Source: a virus
DNA length: 32,788 nucleotides
Strand: one strand, 5' to 3'
IMG/VR virus record: IMGVR_UViG_3300035678_000005
Span: 1-32,788 of that record
The notes beneath the pieces were generated by a model. That model was not told the origin of the DNA, did not search any database, and saw only the letters and a program-made list of their open reading frames with translations. Made by a program: the position numbers and the translations under genes. This document shows positions 1,310-19,794 of this stretch, one piece after another (within the stretch, counting starts at the first letter, position 1; every line of letters starts with the position of its first letter).

Positions 1310-1659
1310 TGGCGCGCAAGCTCCCGAACCCACCCCGGAGGGGACTCGGCGGGTCCTGCGGGTGGTACAGGATCCCACCGCTGCTGGACTGCAAGCCGTT
1401 CAGGGGCCCGAAGCTGACCGAGGACGGCAAGCCGTTCGAGCCGACCGATCGTGAGATCGGCGCGGAGCTGACGTTCAGCTACGACGGGCGCGATATCACC
1501 GGTCAGGTCTGGAGCCTCGCCGTCGGCGGGGTGTGGGTGGTTGCCGACGGCACCGCGTACCTGCTCGGGAAGGAAGACTGGGTGAGGGAAGTGCTGTACG
1601 AGCGTAAACCTGCGGAGGACTTCCCGGTTCTGCGTGAGCTGCTGGACCTCAACGGCTGA
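1309..1659 (+). CDS. Hypothetical protein, 116 aa
   Basis: Function not recognised. The frame is open from 1291, but the ATG at 1309, which overlaps the preceding TGA by one base, fits the local coupling pattern. The sequence is strand-rich (GAELTFSYDGRDITGQVWSL, GGVWVVADGTAYLL), suggesting a small beta barrel, with a helical C-terminus. It runs head-on into the large terminase gene: the two stop codons lie in an 11-bp overlap with no visible terminator between them. Confidence 0.7.
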   Translation: MARKLPNPPRRGLGGSCGWYRIPPLLDCKPFRGPKLTEDGKPFEPTDREIGAELTFSYDGRDITGQVWSLAVGGVWVVADGTAYLLGKEDWVREVLYERKPAEDFPVLRELLDLNG

Positions 1660-4231
1660 TCCGCGCCGCTGCCAGCTTCGACCGGCCTGAGGCTTCCTTG
1701 GGCCGGTCGCTGATGTTCGTGACGAACGACTCCGCGCCGGGCATCGACGCGAGCCGGTAGGCGGCGTACACGGACGCGTCCAGGTCACCTGGCGACTCGT
1801 GACTGTCCTCCTGCCAGGTCGCCCAGGTCTCCTCCAGCCCGAGCAGTCCCAGACCGGCGAACTGGACCCCGCCGGTGATCACGAGCTGCGCGATCGGTTC
1901 GGCCCGCAGCCGTTTACCGACCTTCGCGTTCACCGGCACCAGACGCGGGCACGGACCGGCGACGACACCGCGCGTCTGGAGCTGTTCCCAGGCGGTCCGG
2001 ATCAGCCGACGGACCATGTCTTTGCCGTAGTTCTGCTCGTACACGATCTCGGCGGCCTGCACGTCGTGCGCGAGCTGACAGGCGCGCTCCGGCCACTCGT
2101 CAATGCTCATGTGGCCGGACAGGTCATGAGTCCAGACGACCCGGCCCGACCAGTCCTTGCCACCAGCAACGATTCCCGCGTTGTCGCGTCCACCGCCGGA
2201 CGGGTCCACGGCTACGACGGTCTTCACGTACTCCGGCTGCGACCCGAGCAGGCGCGCGGCGTGGATCTGTTCCTCGGTCAGCAGCGCACCTTCAGGAGGC
2301 TGCGGGTCGCACTGGTACAGGCTCGACCAGTCGCGCATGGTGGACGTGCGCCGTTTGTCGGTCCAGTGTTTCCGAGCCCCTTCGATATCGCCTTCGGGGA
2401 TCCACGGGTGCGGCAGCGGATCCCCGATCCGCCGACCGATCACGTCGTGGTCCTCGGTCGCGAACGCGGGCAGGCTGTTGACCCGCCAGCGTCCACCTTC
2501 GGTGTCGCGTCCTTCCGACTCCAGGACCCGGCCTACGAGATCGGCCTCGTGCCAGCGGGTGTTTACTATCAGCAGCGGCGCCTTCGGTCGCAGCCGCGAC
2601 AGCAGCGAGCCGGAGTACTCGTTGTACGTCGATTCCCGGATGACCCGGCTGTCGGCGTCCTCGCGTCCGCCGAACGCGTCATCGATGACCATCATCGCTG
2701 CGGGGTTGCCGGACACGCCGGTCTGCATGCCGCCGGTCACGAGACCGGCGCCGGTCGTGGTCAGCCAGTTGTTCCGGGCGGCCTGCCGCCGGTCTTTCAG
2801 GAGGCCGAACTGCGCGCCGTGGTCGTCCACCAGCGTGCGGATCATCCGGCCTCGTGTGGCGGCCAGCTGCGCGGCGTAGGACATCAGGATCGCCGGGTCC
2901 TGCGGGTGGTGCGACATCCACCAGAACACGAACCAGACCGTCCAGAAGGTGTTGTGCGTAGGCAGCAGTGAACGACCAGCCAGGTATAGATGCGACGGGG
3001 AATCGACGGTGATGCACCGAACCGGTACGGATTCGACCTGTCGAGCCGACACGTACCGGACCCCCGCAACAGATGAGTCCCGGCATCGTTCACGTTTCCG
3101 GGGCAACCACGCAGCGTCTGACAGCATGAAACCAACGCGATACTTCGGCCCGTGGTCCACGCCGTTGAGCGTGGCTCGTCCTTTCCGGACAGTGGCCTTC
3201 GACCCGAGCGTGAAAACGAGTTCCCGGACACCTTCCGCGAGCGCCTCCACGGTCGTACAGAACTCAATCCCTCCCCGGTCAGGGTCTACGTACCCGTCGG
3301 TGTCTATGAGCCCTTGCAGCAGCGCGAGCCGTTGCTGCCGTGACCCACGGAGGTACTCCGTGGGTATGTGCTTCTGCCGACTGGTCTGTGTGCCTCCGAC
3401 GGCAGCCTTCAGATCGGTGATGAACTGACTTTCGTAGCCGTTCCCGCGTTCACTCTTGGCACGATAAGTCGTGGCTTTACCGCTGTTCTGAGAGGCAGTG
3501 GGTTGCATGTTGTACCCGGCCTCCCGGAACCGATCGATGATCTCGGGGTCTGCCGTGGTGATGGCCGCGCCGGAGGTGTGTCCATCACCGAGCCATGCCC
3601 CGAGAACGTACGGGTCCATCGGAAGTACAGCGTCCGGAAGATCCAAACCGGGGCAGCTTTCGATCTGTGCGTTCTTCGCCCGCGATCTTGCCAGTACGTG
3701 AGTCTCGTGAATGGCGTACTTGTTCCGTCGATCCAGACGGGCACGCCAACGATGCTCCCGGTCCGCGATGATGCGCTCACCGTCTCCGGTGATCACCTCG
3801 TAGCACTCACGGTTGAGCCAGATGGGTGACACGTATGTCACGGTGCAGGGCTTCCCTGTCTCGTCAAAGACCTGATCGCCCACTCGGAGATCGCCCATCG
3901 TTGACCATCCGCCGGGAGTAGCTATCGGGGTATCGAGCGCAAGGGCTTTCCCTGACTGCGGAGGCTGCTCCACGATGCCCCGGTCACAGACACCGTTCAG
4001 CATGTCCACGGCCATCCGGTCGAGCACGTCGTGATAGGGCCGGTGCCGCCAGCGGTCACCGAGCATCCGGCGTGCCAGGGCTGACGGGGTGGGGTCGAGC
4101 TTGATCAGTCCGTGCTCGATCAGCTCGGAGTGCCGTCCCCGGCTGATCAGTTCTGCGAGTAGCCGTGTCTGGAGCTGAGACTTCGCTACCGGATCCAGGT
4201 GCTGGTAAGCGAGGGCTTCAGGGAGCGGCAT
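1649..4231 (-). CDS. terL: Terminase large subunit interrupted by an intein
   Basis: This is the ATPase-nuclease motor that packages DNA into the procapsid. The precursor is 860 aa: extein residues 1-95 and 428-860 (528 aa after splicing, a normal TerL length) flank a 332-aa intein. The Walker A loop is PQSGK at 91-95, completed by T428 after splicing. Walker B is MMVIDD (513-518), the coupling region is NTRWHE (557-562), and the RNase H-like nuclease shows AVDPSGGG (D676), YEQNYG (E732) and GDLD (D816/D818). Activity must therefore depend on splicing, since the uncut precursor has a split P-loop. The ATG at 4231 follows terS by 48 bp, and an in-frame stop lies two codons upstream. Portal and capsid genes are not next to it. 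Confidence 0.95.
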   Translation of the reverse strand: MPLPEALAYQHLDPVAKSQLQTRLLAELISRGRHSELIEHGLIKLDPTPSALARRMLGDRWRHRPYHDVLDRMAVDMLNGVCDRGIVEQPPQSGKALALDTPIATPGGWSTMGDLRVGDQVFDETGKPCTVTYVSPIWLNRECYEVITGDGERIIADREHRWRARLDRRNKYAIHETHVLARSRAKNAQIESCPGLDLPDAVLPMDPYVLGAWLGDGHTSGAAITTADPEIIDRFREAGYNMQPTASQNSGKATTYRAKSERGNGYESQFITDLKAAVGGTQTSRQKHIPTEYLRGSRQQRLALLQGLIDTDGYVDPDRGGIEFCTTVEALAEGVRELVFTLGSKATVRKGRATLNGVDHGPKYRVGFMLSDAAWLPRKRERCRDSSVAGVRYVSARQVESVPVRCITVDSPSHLYLAGRSLLPTHNTFWTVWFVFWWMSHHPQDPAILMSYAAQLAATRGRMIRTLVDDHGAQFGLLKDRRQAARNNWLTTTGAGLVTGGMQTGVSGNPAAMMVIDDAFGGREDADSRVIRESTYNEYSGSLLSRLRPKAPLLIVNTRWHEADLVGRVLESEGRDTEGGRWRVNSLPAFATEDHDVIGRRIGDPLPHPWIPEGDIEGARKHWTDKRRTSTMRDWSSLYQCDPQPPEGALLTEEQIHAARLLGSQPEYVKTVVAVDPSGGGRDNAGIVAGGKDWSGRVVWTHDLSGHMSIDEWPERACQLAHDVQAAEIVYEQNYGKDMVRRLIRTAWEQLQTRGVVAGPCPRLVPVNAKVGKRLRAEPIAQLVITGGVQFAGLGLLGLEETWATWQEDSHESPGDLDASVYAAYRLASMPGAESFVTNISDRPKEASGRSKLAAARISR
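2951..3946 (-). other. Class 3-type intein with LAGLIDADG homing endonuclease, in terL
   Basis: This segment encodes precursor residues 96-427. It begins with Ala instead of Cys/Ser (ALALDTPIATPGGW) and ends THN before Thr. Hallmarks of class 3 inteins are all visible: block B GDGERIIADREHRW with H160 and Trp two residues on (W162, B:12), block F VRCITVD with Cys in place of the usual Asp (C406, F:4), and block G PTHN with Thr at G:5 (T425). The endonuclease has both dodecapeptides, VLGAWLGDG (209-217) and LLQGLIDTDG (304-313), with catalytic Asp in each, so homing may still work. Class and mechanism follow the known WCT rule for class 3 inteins; splicing itself is inferred. Confidence 0.9.
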
Positions 4232-4825: not shown

Positions 4826-5512
4826 TCACCACGCCTTGGCGGCACAGATCGGGCCTATGCCTTCCGCTCTCGAAGCGTCATCGGTGAGTGTCTTTCCGCA
4901 GCGGCCACAGGATCCGATCTCCCGCCCGTAACGCCGGGAGGCGGCCTCGGGCCCGTCGGTCTCGACTTTGGCCAGCAGGGCGTTCCTCACGTCGGCTGAG
5001 ACCCGGTGCAGCTCGTCACCGGCCTGGACCCTGACGAAAACCCGTCCCCGGAACAGCCCCTCAGTGGGCCGGTCGACCTTCAGGAACACAGTCTGGCCGT
5101 CTTTCCCGGTGACCGCGTACCGGCCTACCGGGACGTTCGAGGTGGGTGCCCCGGTGCCGGTGGACACGACCGGCATCACCTTCAACGCGTCGATCCGCGC
5201 CGACACGGCGGCACGACCTGCGTTCCGGGCCCAGTCCAGCGCCTGCTCCGGGTCCACGTGCGGCGTCCGGGAGGCGCGGAGGCTCATCAGGAAGCCGATC
5301 TGCCGCTCGGTGGCCGGAAGGTGCCGGACCGAGGCCAGAGGCTGTTCTGCGGACGCTGAGGGCGCCACAGGCTCCTGACGGGCGATGCGCTGCGCGGCGA
5401 CGATCTCGCGCCCGAGTGCGGTGTGTCGCGCCTTCAGCGCCTCGCCGGTGAGTCCGGTGGTGCCGTAGCGGGCGTCTACCCGAGCCTGTGCGGTGCCGTC
5501 TGCGAATCCCAT
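4826..5512 (-). CDS. DUF6011-like zinc-binding protein, 228 aa
   Basis: The C-terminus reads GSCGRCGKTLTDDASRAEGI followed by GPICA, a pattern I recognise from the DUF6011 zinc-binding domain of actinobacterial and phage proteins (function unknown). The middle has a conserved-looking helix (PATERQIGFLMSLRASR) and a strand-rich stretch (GRYAVTGKDGQTVFLKVDRP), which may be a separate small domain. The frame is open to 5689, but the ATG at 5512 is preferred: it follows CAGGGAGCAGGG and promoter d lies 40-70 bp upstream. It is probably the only gene, or the first gene, of that transcript, with terS downstream. Confidence 0.75.
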   Translation of the reverse strand: MGFADGTAQARVDARYGTTGLTGEALKARHTALGREIVAAQRIARQEPVAPSASAEQPLASVRHLPATERQIGFLMSLRASRTPHVDPEQALDWARNAGRAAVSARIDALKVMPVVSTGTGAPTSNVPVGRYAVTGKDGQTVFLKVDRPTEGLFRGRVFVRVQAGDELHRVSADVRNALLAKVETDGPEAASRRYGREIGSCGRCGKTLTDDASRAEGIGPICAAKAW

Positions 5513-5541
5513 GGTCCCTGCTCCCTGTCTCGTTCCCCTGC

Positions 5542-5581
5542 TGACAAGTACTACGGTACACGGTCTAGTAGTACTTGTCAA
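5542..5581 (-). promoter_or_regulatory. Promoter d with a 12-bp palindromic operator
   Basis: On the minus strand TTGACA (5581-5576), 17 nt, TACCGT (5558-5553), then AGTACTTGTCAGCAGG, the same downstream block as promoters a-c. It is overlaid by a perfect inverted repeat: TGACAAGTACTA (5542-5553) and TAGTACTTGTCA (5569-5580), 15 nt apart. One arm covers the -35 and the other the region from the -10 end to the start site, a classic layout for a dimeric repressor. Confidence 0.75.
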
Positions 5582-5694
5582 AAACCTCTGTGCGCCGATC
5601 TCCGGGGCTTTCAGGACCCGGCACGGGTAAGGAGACCCGAGAGGGGGTGAAAAGCCGGGAGGATCGATCCTCGCGCCAATGGTGAGCACTCCCG

Positions 5695-5873: not shown

Positions 5874-6092
5874 TCAGACCTTCTCTCGCTGTGGGATGAA
5901 CCGGACGGTGATGGAGGACCCGTCCGTGCCGATCTCGGTCAGGCACCGCAGCCGGTGCCGGGTCGCGTACATCCCCGCCGACTTCCGGACCAGCTCCGCG
6001 TCCCGCTGGTAGTGCTTCCCCCGGACCAGCTTGTGCGGCTCTCCGTCGGCGCGCTTGGCCCAGTCGATCATCGGATCGGAGTCGAGCGGCAT
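5874..6092 (-). CDS. Small hypothetical protein, 72 aa
   Basis: Function not recognised. ATG at 6092 is preferred because GGGAG sits 6 nt upstream; an alternative GTG start at 6137 would add 15 residues but has no ribosome binding site. The product is basic and rich in His and Arg (HKLVRGKHYQRDAELVRKSA), so nucleic acid binding is possible. A TTGACG box (6159-6154 on the minus strand) could drive it, but its -10 (TGGTAC) is poor. It is the first gene downstream of the AT-rich island. Confidence 0.6.
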   Translation of the reverse strand: MPLDSDPMIDWAKRADGEPHKLVRGKHYQRDAELVRKSAGMYATRHRLRCLTEIGTDGSSITVRFIPQREKV

Positions 6093-6195
6093 CACAGGCT
6101 CCCATCGTGTCGGCGTCTCATGCGACAACCGTACCACTCGGCAACATTGCCGCCGTCAACCAAGGGTTGACGATCCTGTTGCTACGGGTAGTCAC

Positions 6196-6226
6196 CGGAG
6201 TTTCCTGACAACCTGGCGCCAGGTTA
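6196..6226 (+). repeat. Left 31-bp inverted repeat of the AT-rich island
   Basis: This 31-bp sequence (begins CGGAGTTTCCTGACA, ends with AACCTGGCGCCAGGTT and A) is the exact reverse complement of 6435-6465. The inner half is the 16-bp perfect palindrome AACCTGGCGCCAGGTT, which could be bound by a dimeric protein on its own. Confidence 0.95.
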
Positions 6227-6434
6227 TCGATCAGCTTGTGAAAACGGGCTAAAACTAGCTCGCACGTAGCGTAATTCAATAAATACTTACTTATTAGTAA
6301 TATAAGGAGCTGTGACCTGGGAGTATCACAGAGAGTATATTTAAGCTATACGAAGAGTAATTTAGCTAAATTTACCGTAAAACGATAAAATCTCCCGATT
6401 TAGCTAAAAACCGGGAGATTCTTCGAAGGGGTAT
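6227..6434. other. AT-rich non-coding island between perfect inverted repeats
   Basis: These 208 bp contain about 37% G+C by hand count, far below the flanking genes, and have no ATG-started frame on either strand. They hold several small symmetric elements: AATTTAGCTAAATT (6359-6372, perfect palindrome), a second ATTTAGCTAAA (6398-6408), CTGTGA/TCACAG arms (6310-6315 and 6326-6331), and six copies of AGCT (6233, 6257, 6308, 6344, 6364, 6402). The element lies between the end of the primase-helicase gene and the next minus-strand gene. Together with 6093-6195 and 6466-6478 it makes the only gene-free stretch over 300 bp. A replication origin, a structured RNA or a protein-binding locus are all possible; an origin is my favoured inference because of the AT content and the primase next to it. 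Confidence 0.7.
6389..6420 (-). terminator. Terminator-like hairpin after the primase gene
   Basis: Arms AATCTCCCG (6389-6397) and CGGGAGATT (6412-6420) pair perfectly over 9 bp with a 14-nt loop. Read on the minus strand, the stem is followed by TTATCGTTTT, a weak U-rich tail, about 60 nt after the primase-helicase stop. It may equally be a structural part of the island. Confidence 0.5.
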
Positions 6435-6465
6435 TAACCTGGCGCCAGGTTGTCAGGAAACTCCG
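6435..6465 (-). repeat. Right 31-bp inverted repeat of the AT-rich island
   Basis: Exact reverse complement of 6196-6226, ending 13 bp before the stop codon of the primase-helicase gene. The two copies face each other across 208 bp and could form a large hairpin or cruciform. Confidence 0.95.
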
Positions 6466-6478
6466 TATGCACAGAGAG

Positions 6479-8746
6479 TTACATCGGGTACAGCATCACC
6501 GCCGGACGCCTACTGGTCTTGACCTTGCCAATCCGGATCTCTCCGCGCTTCACGAGCAGGTCCAGCACCCCGCTGTAGGCCGACCGATCACCTGTCGTCA
6601 GGAGCGCGACCATGTCAGAGTTCCGGACACCCTCCAGCCCGGCGTCGCGCACCGCCGACAGGATCCGCTCCCGGACCCGGTCACGCCGTACGGACTCCGC
6701 ATCCATGGTGTCCCGCTTCACGATCTCCGCGTGCCCGGCGGCCTCCGCAGCTCTGGTGTTGCTCTTGACCGCCTCCAGCATCAGCGCACGCTGGCACTCC
6801 GCCTGGACCTGCTGCGACTGGTGCACGAGCACCCCGGCCATCTGCCACCAGTTGTGCGAGATGTACGTCTCCCCGTGCAGGAACGCCAGCGCAGCGCCGA
6901 CCTTCAGCCGGGTCAGGTTCAGGTGCCCGGTCAGCGGGTCATCGATCTGCCCCGTCTGGACCAGGTACCGGTTCTCCCGGATCTCCTCTTTCACGTCGTC
7001 TGGGTAGTCCACGTACTTCGGCAGTGGCAGCGGCAGGGACCATTGGACGGCGCCCGGCCACTCCGGCAGCTCCCGGGGGATGTCAGAGTCCGTGGCGTTG
7101 ACCCACAGGAACCGTTGAGGGGTGCCCGCGTTCACCTCCCGGTCGTTCAGCAGCACGTCGGACAGCGCGGGCTGTACGCCGCCCATGACCACCCCTCGGT
7201 AGGCGCCCTCCGGAACGTCCCGCGTCCGCTCGGTGGTGGCGTTCTCCTGGCCCAGAGACTCTCCGGTGAGGAACTTCCGCAGTTCCGCCATGACGTGCGA
7301 CCCCGAGCGGTTGTTCAGACCGTCGAGCGTGGCGATCTCGTCAATGACCACGATCCTGCGCGGGTCGTCCACCAGTTCGGGGACCTTGGTTTTCTTGTCC
7401 CGTGTCAGGTACGTCTCAGCGAGCCCTTCGGCGGACCCGATGTTCTTCTCGATCAGACTGGAGTCGAGCGCCTCGAACCCTTCCCACAGCACCTCGCGGG
7501 ACAGCTTCCGGACCGACGACTTGCCGCCTCCGGACCGCGATACCGCCAGCGCGCCGAGATTCAGGGCCATCTCGCTGCCGACCGTCGGCGGCAGCTTCAC
7601 GCTCGCGGGGATCTCCGCCAGCACCCGGACCAGGACGTGCACGAGCAGGCAGGGCGCGCTGGCTGTCCGGGCATAGGCGGCCTGCCGGATCCGCTGGAGG
7701 ATCGGTGTCCGGTCGAACAGGTCGTAGGACGACAGCGCGCGGGTGTCGTCGGACCAGTCGTCGTTGAACTCCGGCACGTCCCACGGCGGGCGCAGCACCG
7801 CATCAGCCAGGACGGCTTTCCGCAGCGTCGGTGACCACTTCCCCTGGCACTTCGGATCCGAGGACATCGGTTCTGGCAGCAGGTCGGCGTACAGCGCGCG
7901 GGCGGCCTTCCGGTCGAGCCCTGTCCACGGCGTAATGGCGATCCGGACCAGGTCCCATGCCAGGTCGCGGGTGTACGCCTCCCACCCGCCGCGCCCGTCG
8001 TGGTGCCCGTCCGGCCAGTTCGCCACGTCGGTGAGTGTCCGCTGCCACCAGGCGGTCCGGGATGCCACCCAGGACGCGGCAGCGTCCGTCTGTGCCGGAC
8101 TCAGCCGCTCGAACTCCGGCCCGTCGTACGTGATCGTCTGATCGTCGTCGTCGGCCCTGCGGATGAGCAGGGACCGTAGCGCGCTGCCGGACAGGTCTTC
8201 GACACCGAGGACGTACAGGTCATCGATCGCACCGAAGTCGGGTTCGGTCTCCCAGACGTAGGCGCGGGCCACTCCGTCACGTGCCAGCTTGACGGTCGGC
8301 GCGATGAACACGAACATCCTCCCCGCGCCGCTCGGGAGTCCGGAGGCCACGTCCACCCCTGGCAGCTGCACCTTCCGCACCCGCAGCGGTGCTACGAGAT
8401 CGTGTGTCCCGCCGTTGGGCGTCCGGGCAGTGCCGTACGAAATCGGCATCGGCACATCACCGGCTGATCCGCCGTTCTGCGGGTCCACGTCGATCACATC
8501 TAGGGTGTGACCGGCCACCATCCCGAGGGCGTCACCTGGTTTCCAGTCGTCAAGGACCGACGGGTCCGGCGGGGTGTGCTGCCAGCGGTTCGGCAGCACG
8601 TACCCGTAGACGGCGTCGGGTTTGTCCGACGGCTTGGCGACGAACACCGGTATGCCACGCTGGATCAGTCCCCGTGCGATCTCCAGGGCGTGCGCCTGCT
8701 CGGGGGTGATGTCGGTCTGGGTGACAGTTGCCCCGTGGTCTGTCAT
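6479..8746 (-). CDS. Primase-polymerase / helicase fusion, 755 aa
   Basis: The likely role is to prime and unwind phage DNA. The N-terminal third looks like a bifunctional primase-polymerase (AEP-type) domain: AGHTLDVIDVDPQNGG with metal-binding Asp at 86 and 88, GGTHDLV with His115, and GVDVASG. The C-terminal half is a P-loop ATPase with Walker A RSGGGKSS (404-411) and Walker B RRIVVIDE (463-470), as in phage DUF3987/VapE-type helicases. The last 70 residues look like a winged helix (RNSDMVALLTTGDRSAYSGV). The frame is open from 8866, but ATG 8746 follows AGAAAGGA and is preferred. The C-terminal domain family is less certain than the fusion architecture. Confidence 0.85.
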   Translation of the reverse strand: MTDHGATVTQTDITPEQAHALEIARGLIQRGIPVFVAKPSDKPDAVYGYVLPNRWQHTPPDPSVLDDWKPGDALGMVAGHTLDVIDVDPQNGGSAGDVPMPISYGTARTPNGGTHDLVAPLRVRKVQLPGVDVASGLPSGAGRMFVFIAPTVKLARDGVARAYVWETEPDFGAIDDLYVLGVEDLSGSALRSLLIRRADDDDQTITYDGPEFERLSPAQTDAAASWVASRTAWWQRTLTDVANWPDGHHDGRGGWEAYTRDLAWDLVRIAITPWTGLDRKAARALYADLLPEPMSSDPKCQGKWSPTLRKAVLADAVLRPPWDVPEFNDDWSDDTRALSSYDLFDRTPILQRIRQAAYARTASAPCLLVHVLVRVLAEIPASVKLPPTVGSEMALNLGALAVSRSGGGKSSVRKLSREVLWEGFEALDSSLIEKNIGSAEGLAETYLTRDKKTKVPELVDDPRRIVVIDEIATLDGLNNRSGSHVMAELRKFLTGESLGQENATTERTRDVPEGAYRGVVMGGVQPALSDVLLNDREVNAGTPQRFLWVNATDSDIPRELPEWPGAVQWSLPLPLPKYVDYPDDVKEEIRENRYLVQTGQIDDPLTGHLNLTRLKVGAALAFLHGETYISHNWWQMAGVLVHQSQQVQAECQRALMLEAVKSNTRAAEAAGHAEIVKRDTMDAESVRRDRVRERILSAVRDAGLEGVRNSDMVALLTTGDRSAYSGVLDLLVKRGEIRIGKVKTSRRPAVMLYPM

Positions 8747-8781
8747 TATTGGGACGTTCCTTTCTCGCAGAGGGGTTCGGG

Positions 8782-8809
8782 CGGCGCCGATGCTTCGGAA
8801 TCGGCGCCG
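8782..8809 (-). promoter_or_regulatory. Leader stem-loop upstream of the primase gene
   Basis: CGGCGCCGAT (8782-8791) and ATCGGCGCCG (8800-8809) form a perfect 10-bp stem with an 8-nt loop, 36 nt upstream of the primase start codon. No U-run follows on the minus strand, so a translational or attenuation role, or a protein-binding palindrome, is as likely as termination. Confidence 0.5.
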
Positions 8810-8876
8810 TCTCTCGTTCCCCAGGTCGGTCCGACGATGGTAGACCTGTGAACGGGCTGAGGGCATCGGGCAACGA

Positions 8877-9098
8877 TCACGACCGGTTCGATTCCATCCA
8901 CCGGTTGGCGGCCTCCAGGTCTACCGTCTCGGACAGCGCCTGGAGGGCTTCCGACAGGGTCACCGTGCGGCCCGCGACTCCGGTCAGCCGGGCGGTGACG
9001 AGCTTCAGCGCGGCGCGGGACTCGGGACGGATGTTGATCGTGACGAACCCGCTCGTAGCGGGGGTGCGCATCTGCGTGCGCTTGCGTGTGGTGGTCAT
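8877..9098 (-). CDS. Ribbon-helix-helix-like DNA-binding protein, 73 aa
   Basis: After a basic N-terminus (TTTRKRTQMRTP) comes a strand (GFVTINIRPESRAALKLVTA) and two helices (TLSEALQALSETVDLEAANR), the layout of ribbon-helix-helix repressors of the CopG/Arc type; length also fits. It is transcribed away from the replication operon starting at 9189, so it could regulate that divergent region or the primase gene downstream. No Shine-Dalgarno sequence is seen, but a TAGCAT box ends 6 nt before the ATG, which suggests a leaderless message. Confidence 0.65.
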   Translation of the reverse strand: MTTTRKRTQMRTPATSGFVTINIRPESRAALKLVTARLTGVAGRTVTLSEALQALSETVDLEAANRWMESNRS

Positions 9099-14856: not shown

Positions 14857-15468
14857 ATGGCTGACAATTCGACCAAGGTCATCACCGGCAAGGTCCGGCT
14901 GAGCTACCCCGAGCTGTTCAAGGCGCGGAAGGCCAACGAGAACGCGGACCCGAAGTTCAGCGTTGAGGTTCTGGTGCCGAAGACCGACACCAAGACGGTA
15001 GCGAAGATCCGCGCCGCACAGAACGCGGCGGCGACCAGCGATCAGGGCGTGAAGGCGCTCGGTCCGCAGTCCCCGGCCAACACCTACGGCGGGGAGAAGT
15101 TCAACGGGAAGAAATTCGGTGATACGCTGCGCGACGGCGACGACCCGGACGAGAACGAAGGCCGCCCGGAGCGTGAGGGGCACTGGTTCCTGACCGTCCG
15201 CTCCAGCGAGCGCTACAAGCCAGGCGTGGTGGACAAGGACTCGAACCCGGTCATGGATCAGTCGGAGGTCTACGGCGGCGTCTACGCCCGTGTCTCCATG
15301 GCGGCGTTCGCCTTCAGCACCGAGGGGAACAAGGGTGTCTCGTTCGGTCTGAACAACGTCATGGTCCTGGGTTACGGCGATCCGTTCGGCGGCGCCCGCG
15401 CGTCGGCTGAGGACGACTTCAGCGACGACTTCGAGGACGACGGTCCTTCGGACGACGACCTTCTCTAG
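14857..15468 (+). CDS. DUF2815-type ssDNA-binding protein, 203 aa
   Basis: The N-terminus VRLSYPELFKARK, the middle DPKFSVEVLVPKTD and the RYKPGVVDKDSNPV region match my knowledge of the DUF2815 family, phage single-strand DNA-binding proteins. It ends in a strongly acidic tail (DDFSDDFEDDGPSDDDLL), like the C-terminal tails with which SSBs recruit partner proteins. It has its own promoter and a strong terminator hairpin directly after it, as expected for an abundant protein. The polymerase gene follows. Confidence 0.87.
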   Translation: MADNSTKVITGKVRLSYPELFKARKANENADPKFSVEVLVPKTDTKTVAKIRAAQNAAATSDQGVKALGPQSPANTYGGEKFNGKKFGDTLRDGDDPDENEGRPEREGHWFLTVRSSERYKPGVVDKDSNPVMDQSEVYGGVYARVSMAAFAFSTEGNKGVSFGLNNVMVLGYGDPFGGARASAEDDFSDDFEDDGPSDDDLL

Positions 15469-15539: not shown

Positions 15540-17417
15540 GTGGCGTTCAGGCGCTTACAGCACATCCTGTGGCTGGACACCGAATCTCGGTGCGAGCTGG
15601 ACATCCGCAAAACCAATGCCTACCGGTACGTCGAACACGAGTCGTTCGACCTGCTGATGATCGCGTACGCCCTGGACAACCAGCCGGTCCGGCTTGTGGA
15701 TGACCCTGCCGACCTGTTCGACACGATCACCGAGCTGATAGCCGGTGCCGCCCGCAACGAGTACCTGCTACTGGCTCACAACTCCGGGTTCGATCGGGTG
15801 GCCATGAGCGCCTATCTCGGCATGGGAGTCGGGCAGTACCTGCCGCCGGAGCGGTGGGACGACTCCATGGTCCGGGCGGCCAACGCGGGCTACCCGCAGG
15901 GGCTGGACAAGCTCGGGAAGACCCTCGGTGTGAAGCCGAAGGACTCGGCAGGAACCCTGCTCATCAACAAATTCTCCAAGCCGAACCGCAAGGGAGAGTG
16001 GAACGACCGCAACAGCCACCCCGAGGACTGGGAGCGGTTCGGCGCCTACTGCGTGAACGACGTGGAGACGATGCGGGAGGCGTGCGCGTTCCTGCCTCCG
16101 CAGTCCCCCGCAGAGCGGTCCGTATGGCTGGCGGACCAGCACATCAACGACCGGGGCGTCCGGGTAGACGTGCCGATGGCAGCAGCGGCGATCGTCGCGG
16201 CGTCGGAAAACAAGGCGTCCGCGCGGCGCGAGGTGATCGAGCTGACCGGTGTGGAGAACCCCGGCAGCGTTCAGCAGTTGCTCGGGTGGTTCAGCGCGCA
16301 GGGCCGGGAACTGGGAGACCTGCGGGCCGACACCGTCAAGGAACAGCTGACGATCCCCGAGCTGCCCGCCGGACAGCGTCGCGTCCTGGAGCTACGGCAG
16401 GAACTCGCACTGGCCGCCAGCGCGAAGTACGACGCCTGCGTGAACGGCGTCAACAGTGACGGACGGCTGCGGGGGCAGACACGGTACTACGGCGCACACA
16501 CGGGCCGATGGGGTGGCCGGGGCGTGCAGCTCCAGAATCTCCCCCGGATGTCCCTGGGTGAGCGTGAGCCGTTGGCGATCCTGGATCTGATGTCCGGTCT
16601 CGGGGCGTCGCCTAACGCGCTGAAGGCGCTCGTACGCCCGCTGCTGACGGGACCGCTGACCGTGGTGGACTACTCAGCAATCGAAGCGCGGGTGCTGGCG
16701 TGGCTGGCAGGGGAGCAATGGGTCCTGGACGCGTTCCGCGACGGGCAGGATCTCTACGTGGAGACCGCCCGGCGGTTCGGTCCGCAGTTCACCCGGCAGC
16801 ACGGCAAGGTTGCGGTCCTGGCACTCGGGTACGGCGGCGCGGTCGGCGCGCTGCGGAACATGGGCGCGAAAGGCGAGGACAACGAGCTGAGGCCGCTGGT
16901 CGATCTGTACCGGTCGGCAAACCCGAAGATCAAGCAGTTTTGGTACGACGCGTGGGACACGTTCCAGAGTGGCGGTGAGTGCGGTCGGCTGACCGTGAAG
17001 GCACAGCGGGGCGTGCGAACGATCGTGCTCCCGTCGGGCCGGGAGATCGTCTACAGGGGCGTACACCGAGCCACCTGGGCTGACGAGGACGGCACCGTCC
17101 GGAAGGGGATCGCGTTCCGGCACCCGACCGGTAAGACACCGAAATTGTGGTTCGGAATTATTGCCGAAAATTGCACCCAGGCGGTTGCTCGTGATCTGCT
17201 GGCGTACAGCTTACCGAAACTGGAGGCTGCCGGGGTGCCGACCGTGGCGCACGTGCACGATGAGATCGTGGCCGACGGGGATCACCTGGAGGCCATGGCC
17301 GCGACGATGACCGATCTCCCGGCGTGGGCTGCCGGTCTGCCGTTGTCGGTCGGCGGATGGTGCGATGAGCACCAACGGAACTGCCCCGGCCACGTGGTGG
17401 AGCGCTACACCAAATAG
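15540..17417 (+). CDS. polA: Family A DNA polymerase with 3'-5' exonuclease domain, 625 aa
   Basis: The replicative phage DNA polymerase. The N-terminal DEDDy exonuclease shows WLDTES (D13, E15), AHNSGFD (D85) and YCVND (Y170, D174). The polymerase domain has motif A VVDYSAIEAR (D377), motif B GKVAVLALGYGG (422-433) and motif C VHDEIV (H573, D574). There is no 5'-3' exonuclease domain, as in other compact phage polymerases. The GTG start at 15540 follows AAGGGAGGT, the strongest ribosome binding site in the window. A terminator follows the stop. Confidence 0.95.
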   Translation: MAFRRLQHILWLDTESRCELDIRKTNAYRYVEHESFDLLMIAYALDNQPVRLVDDPADLFDTITELIAGAARNEYLLLAHNSGFDRVAMSAYLGMGVGQYLPPERWDDSMVRAANAGYPQGLDKLGKTLGVKPKDSAGTLLINKFSKPNRKGEWNDRNSHPEDWERFGAYCVNDVETMREACAFLPPQSPAERSVWLADQHINDRGVRVDVPMAAAAIVAASENKASARREVIELTGVENPGSVQQLLGWFSAQGRELGDLRADTVKEQLTIPELPAGQRRVLELRQELALAASAKYDACVNGVNSDGRLRGQTRYYGAHTGRWGGRGVQLQNLPRMSLGEREPLAILDLMSGLGASPNALKALVRPLLTGPLTVVDYSAIEARVLAWLAGEQWVLDAFRDGQDLYVETARRFGPQFTRQHGKVAVLALGYGGAVGALRNMGAKGEDNELRPLVDLYRSANPKIKQFWYDAWDTFQSGGECGRLTVKAQRGVRTIVLPSGREIVYRGVHRATWADEDGTVRKGIAFRHPTGKTPKLWFGIIAENCTQAVARDLLAYSLPKLEAAGVPTVAHVHDEIVADGDHLEAMAATMTDLPAWAAGLPLSVGGWCDEHQRNCPGHVVERYTK

Positions 17418-18110: not shown

Positions 18111-18139
18111 TTGACGTACTACATGACAACTGTCATGCT
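18111..18139 (+). promoter_or_regulatory. Promoter f with palindromic operator
   Basis: TTGACG (18111-18116) is followed after 17 nt by CATGCT (18134-18139), a weak -10, then GTGCATGTCAGCA, the conserved downstream block. The spacer holds a perfect 7-bp inverted repeat, CATGACA-AC-TGTCATG (18122-18137). The half-site TGTCA is shared with promoter d. Confidence 0.6.
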
Positions 18140-18172
18140 GTGCATGTCAGCAAAACCGGAGAGGAACCGAGC

Positions 18173-19743: not shown

Positions 19744-19761
19744 TGCGTGACGCGGTAACGT
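19733..19761 (+). promoter_or_regulatory. Promoter g
   Basis: TTGACG (19733-19738), 17 nt, TAACGT (19756-19761), then ACTACCTGACAGC, a slightly diverged copy of the conserved downstream block. It lies 34 bp before the GTG at 19795. Confidence 0.7.
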
Positions 19762-19794
19762 ACTACCTGACAGCCCAGAGGCAGGAGAGCCACC

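Follow-up and report, generated by a model that had tools for sequence, protein, structure and literature searches.

A perfect inverted repeat flanking AT-rich DNA just past a primase-helicase gene is a likely phage replication origin

Results

An AT-rich island framed by perfect inverted arms

The window analyzed here, 32,788 bases long, is an entire virus record with about 65% G+C (65.3%). Directly past the stop of a minus-strand primase-helicase gene (6479-8866), it carries two 31-nt arms, at 6196-6226 (+) and 6435-6465 (-), that are 100% complementary and spaced by 208 nt. The proximal arm begins 13 bp past the primase-helicase stop codon at 6479, and the distal arm is its perfect inverted copy. 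No other perfect inverted pair of at least 18 bp with a spacer of 15 to 600 bp is present in the record, for which chance alone predicts about 5e-11 such pairs. Each arm holds one copy of the 16-bp palindrome AACCTGGCGCCAGGTT (6210-6225 and 6436-6451), which consists of two head-to-head 8-bp half-sites; the copy at 6210-6225 extends with its flanks to a 22-bp near-palindrome. These two copies are the only ones in the record, even when 3 mismatches are allowed. The exact inverted copies with inner palindromes described in the original prediction are thus confirmed. Each arm has one clear palindromic pair, that is, two half-sites; a putative third, outer half-site is degenerate (TTCCTGAC compared with AACCTGGC, 5/8 positions), an agreement that 12% of shuffles also attain and that on its own is not significant.

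The 208-bp interior (6227-6434) is the most AT-rich place in the record, with 37.0% G+C as against 65.3% overall (z about -7); outside the island, the lowest 208-bp window has 54%. ATG is absent from both of its strands, and there is no useful reading frame. The lack of an ATG-started frame had been noted in the original prediction, as had a surplus of AGCT sites over the roughly one expected, and we count six for 0.68 expected. The palindrome TTTAGCTAAA, also foreseen in two copies, lies at 6361-6370 and at 6399-6408 and nowhere else in the record even at 1 mismatch, with 0.02 occurrences expected. The second copy falls in the loop region of a hairpin at 6387-6422. This hairpin had been noticed as a 9-bp structure; it is real but longer, with 13-nt arms of which 12/13 positions pair (15 pairs counting G-U). 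It scores as an intrinsic terminator on the minus strand, consistent with the primase transcript ending there. We found no DnaA-like box in the island and no match of the element in an RNA family search. The segment 6190-6475 folds strongly, but DNA with perfect inverted arms does so on any strand, and a structured RNA was set aside as a reading. GC skew, proposed earlier as a source of evidence on an origin, is uninformative here because its minimum coincides with the switch in coding strand, so that it is confounded by gene orientation.

Genes around the island

The primase-helicase gene encodes a protein of 795 amino acids that matches phage primase/polymerase families (phrog_28894) and, weakly, DUF3987 in its helicase region. 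In an AlphaFold model, a confident core comprises residues from about 380 to 670, and Foldseek matched the model to MCM helicases with an E-value of about 1e-6. The C terminus (residues 747-795, encoded at 6479-6628) is a confidently predicted helix-helix-strand-strand domain with pLDDT of 90 and above. Folded separately, it retrieved various winged-helix proteins, with the weak E-values to be expected of such a small domain. The protein is thus predicted to combine an MCM-like AAA+ core with a C-terminal winged helix. For the N terminus, where pLDDT is below 50, no Prim-Pol model matched. A profile built from the primases of the window's family gives a match to the ORF904 primase domain of plasmid pRN1 (E=4e-5); the window's sequence alone gave no match to the ORF904 primase.

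Other genes of a replication module are located at 15540-17417 (a phage PolA-type polymerase) and 14857-15468 (SSB). On the far side of the island, the next minus-strand gene probably starts at 6092 (ATG, with GGGAG upstream). Between this gene and the island, a 17-bp palindrome, GTCAACCaagGGTTGAC (6157-6173), overlaps a minus-strand TTGACG hexamer and is a possible operator. Directly upstream of the primase gene, a small protein is encoded at 8877-9098 (-); it resembles ribbon-helix-helix proteins by eye, without Pfam support.

The palindromic repeats, together with this small, possibly ribbon-helix-helix protein recognized by sequence inspection, could be read as a centromere-like partition site, as the original prediction had also allowed. 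A search of the record, which is possibly partial, covered the ParB type among centromere-binding folds and detected no such protein. Since Pfam lends the small protein no support either, and we know of no need for a partition site in phages with a primase-helicase replication module, we give this reading almost no weight.

Serine invertases usually act on inverted sites with inner dyads, a layout that the arms match. The arms might then be crossover sites at which a recombinase flips the 208-bp core. Against this stand the lack of any serine or tyrosine recombinase in the record, which may be incomplete, the lack of a coding frame or clear promoter within the core, and the conserved location after primase genes described below. 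An invertible segment is, in our judgment, scarcely credible.

Searches for DNA relatives

A blastn search with the element gave no match among phages or plasmids, and direct DNA relatives were found neither in these nor in IMG/VR or GTDB contigs. The search for the repeat and the island in related phage genomes, by which the original prediction was to be checked, thus produced no DNA match. A 29-nt IUPAC pattern derived from the arm had no match in GTDB genome contigs. The 16-bp palindrome alone had one match in IMG/VR (L004), which we rejected as a relative of the element, the palindrome being placed within a probable coding gene and without a second arm. Nor is there a second copy of the element in the record, although diverged copies could escape the searches of the record, of the blastn collections, and by pattern.

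The layout recurs after primase-helicase genes

Because no close DNA relative was found, we compared layouts instead of sequences. The first clue had come from arms around AT-rich DNA right past the primase gene in three phages (L014, L016, and L050), noticed while inverted repeats were being listed in DNA-polymerase-related phages. In a first set, composed of ORFs of at least 250 amino acids in primase-helicase loci, a fixed 450 bp past each stop codon, a measure that does not depend on gene calling, was scored for its best spaced inverted repeat and its lowest 100-bp G+C content. The mean inverted-repeat score was 13.1 after 74 primases and 8.5 after 434 other ORFs (p=4e-25 without the window), in a set that is partly non-independent in that the hypothesis came from some of the same loci. 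Scores of at least 16 were reached by 16 of the 74 primases and by none of the 434 other genes. The AT dip was likewise deeper after primases (-0.196, compared with -0.080 after other ORFs; p=1e-31). With one primase per 60% identity cluster (35 versus 222), the differences persisted for repeats (p=1.9e-9) and for the AT dip (8.7e-15), and in this reduced set the primase site had the top rank in 18 of 33 loci (5.4 expected).

A second set was drawn with a three-member alignment of the window's own primase family, with control ORFs of at least 120 amino acids. Here the inverted-repeat score was 15.4 after 30 primases and 9.6 after 143 controls (p=5e-7), and the AT dip was -0.22 and -0.09, respectively (p=2e-12); these p-values are rough, as some of the high control scores stem from convergent genes that share the element with a primase, and a few loci nearly duplicate one another. 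By the measure used here, the layout is absent after some primases of the family (L089, phage Firecracker; L105-L109; L097; L102). Across phages whose downstream genes differ, the layout follows the primase-helicase gene.

This recurrence bears on two further readings. In the first, related to the acquired element of the original prediction, a small non-coding, MITE-like mobile element with 31-bp terminal inverted repeats was inserted behind the primase gene. Perfect terminal repeats, a length of 270 bp, an AT-rich non-coding body, and a foreign-looking composition would all suit such an element. However, no dispersed copies were found in the record, the blastn collections, or the pattern scans; there is no exact flanking direct repeat, the best target duplication being TAGTCAC/TATGCAC (5/7); and other phages have the same layout in the same position with unrelated arm sequences. 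We therefore disfavor a mobile insertion and hold it to be very improbable.

The second reading is a transcriptional regulatory region, in which a phage repressor would use the palindromes as operators, on either side of the primase operon's terminator and the next operon's promoter. Palindromes of 16-22 bp are operator-like, a minus-strand terminator does lie inside the element, and the further palindrome at 6157-6173 overlaps the TTGACG hexamer upstream of the next gene. A terminator plus an operator would nevertheless leave unexplained both the 208-bp AT-rich core and the perfect identity of the 31-bp arms, and the layout stays with the primase-helicase gene though the genes downstream change. 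We accordingly see only a small chance that the island is a regulatory region.

Relatives with the same arm build

The closest annotated phage relatives of the window's primase are those of Gordonia phages Bock and TinyDot and of Dulem virus 32, with 28-32% identity over half of the protein. Like the window, all three have inverted arms after the primase stop; by contrast, their arm sequences are unrelated to those of the window, and their spacers measure 72-157 bp instead of 208. In the relatives whose arms were compared with those of the window, cores of 72-176 bp are likewise shorter. The regions examined in these three phages bear no origin annotation, and we infer from their sequences that they are candidate origins.

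The arm design, in which a head-to-head pair comes after an outer half-site, is shared by L090, L103, L094, L096, L119, and L088. In Dulem virus 32, the 30-bp arm reads CGTGGCCA-AA-CGTGGCCA-TGGCCACG, with the inner 16-bp palindrome CGTGGCCATGGCCACG; in L103, TGTTGGACA occurs twice and then inverted. The arms of L094, L096, L119, and Gordonia phage Bock are built similarly to these two. In TinyDot, a dense array of CCGTGGACAC iterons (4714-4860 of L087) overlaps gene 58 of the annotation, possibly a non-coding origin region that was wrongly called a gene.

Discussion

We conclude that the island at 6196-6465 is very likely the DNA replication origin of this phage. This reading is based on the anatomy of the island, its place 13 bp past the primase-helicase stop, and a layout that recurs across phages, including one with an annotated origin. 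Of the interpretations in the original prediction, an origin next to a primase-helicase is thus the one strongly favored by position, anatomy, and comparison.

The original prediction knew of no named element with this layout. An origin directly downstream of a primase-helicase gene is, however, an already known kind, to which the window adds a probable new case; the main features of the layout recur in the origin stem-loop of pRN1 (PMC4234260), in the origins of SaPI and SCCmec (PMC7581432), and in that of Sfi21 (NC_000872). In pRN1, a stem-loop directly 3' of the orf904 primase-helicase gene is needed for replication and can be moved within the plasmid (PMC4234260). The pRN1 arrangement resembles that of the window in that an inverted repeat enclosing an unpaired interior comes right after a gene whose primase-helicase product has a C-terminal winged helix, and in that the region also contains a transcription terminator. 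The two differ in dimensions (a 21-bp stem and a 58-nt loop in pRN1, 31 bp and 208 nt in the window), in the palindromic sites of the window's arms, which are not described for pRN1, and in the helicase, which belongs to SF3 in pRN1 and has an MCM-like/DUF3987-like fold in the window. The pRN1 study also noted a stem-loop of similar form in Bordetella phage BIP-1, and its authors proposed that binding occurs via the winged helix (PMC4234260). In the related Bordetella phage BPP-1, analyzed here in place of BIP-1, we found 22-bp arms around a 60-bp spacer of 35% G+C, about 470 bp past the primase stop.

In SaPI and SCCmec (Cch2), the origin follows the helicase gene directly, and the C-terminal domain of the helicase binds to it (PMC7581432, citing Ubeda et al. 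2007); one SCCmec helicase has been described as MCM-like (Mir-Sanchis et al. 2016, cited in PMC10061031). The placement directly past the helicase gene is that of the window. These origins contain several short iterons, whereas the window's arm has one palindromic pair and at most a weak third half-site. In Streptococcus thermophilus phage Sfi21, a region starting at the end of the primase gene is annotated as "origin of replication, 302 bp non-coding region" (NC_000872, 34487-34784). Within it, 59 bp after the primase stop, we found 18-bp inverted arms with two TTAGTTAC iterons and 71 bp of AT-rich DNA between the arms. Sfi21 has another primase type and another arm sequence, and its arms are direct iterons, whereas those of the window are palindromes.

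Phage P4 provides a further comparison; its alpha protein has a bacterial Toprim primase, and its origin is made of iteron arrays. Alpha is described in PMC4234260 as a self-loading primase-helicase whose C-terminal winged helix binds origin repeats. P4 alpha and ori-crr resemble the window in the C-terminal winged helix and in a primase-helicase as the proposed initiator.

In the mechanism that we propose for the origin, the primase-helicase would act as initiator and bind both palindromic arms via its C-terminal winged helix, AACCTGGCGCCAGGTT being the putative binding site, with one assembly per arm in opposite orientations. MCM-like AAA+ rings would load at the arms and melt the AT-rich core, which would serve as the DNA unwinding region, and the N-terminal primase part would lay primers. 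The phage PolA-type polymerase and SSB would then extend two outgoing forks, and the minus-strand terminator inside the core would end the primase transcript.

Compared with known origins of this kind, the single palindrome per arm, the long core, and the terminator inside it are possible variant features. A stronger version is that they constitute a distinct design. Each arm would carry a single palindromic site in place of an iteron array, and the melting region would contain the initiator transcript's own terminator with the repeated TTTAGCTAAA motif, so that melting would be controlled or primed by transcription of the initiator gene. We regard this version as unlikely.

Few phages have mapped replication origins. 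Origins could be predicted in many uncultured phages by a simple rule, namely that inverted arms flank AT-rich DNA right past a primase-helicase gene; the rule has statistical backing in two phage sets and was checked against one annotated origin. In the phage of the window, the rule singles out one 270-bp fragment and one protein domain.

Further features were observed elsewhere in the record. A 20-bp repeat, GTAATGTNNTACATGTCAGC, is present in six copies with up to 3 mismatches (53-72, 600-619, 997-1016, 18132-18151, and 19755-19774 on the plus strand and 5540-5559 on the minus strand), where none is expected by chance. Genes appear to follow the copies, which may represent a family of promoters or operators. 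At 5543-5580, upstream of the gene at 4826-5689, there is a 12-bp inverted repeat (GACAAGTACTAC/GTAGTACTTGTC); nearby on the minus strand, TTGACA and TACCGT are 17 bp apart, and we read this region as a promoter with operator-like sites. Finally, the large terminase gene (1649-4231, minus strand) appears to hold an in-frame intein with a LAGLIDADG domain; by inspection, the first residue of the intein is Ala and not Cys.
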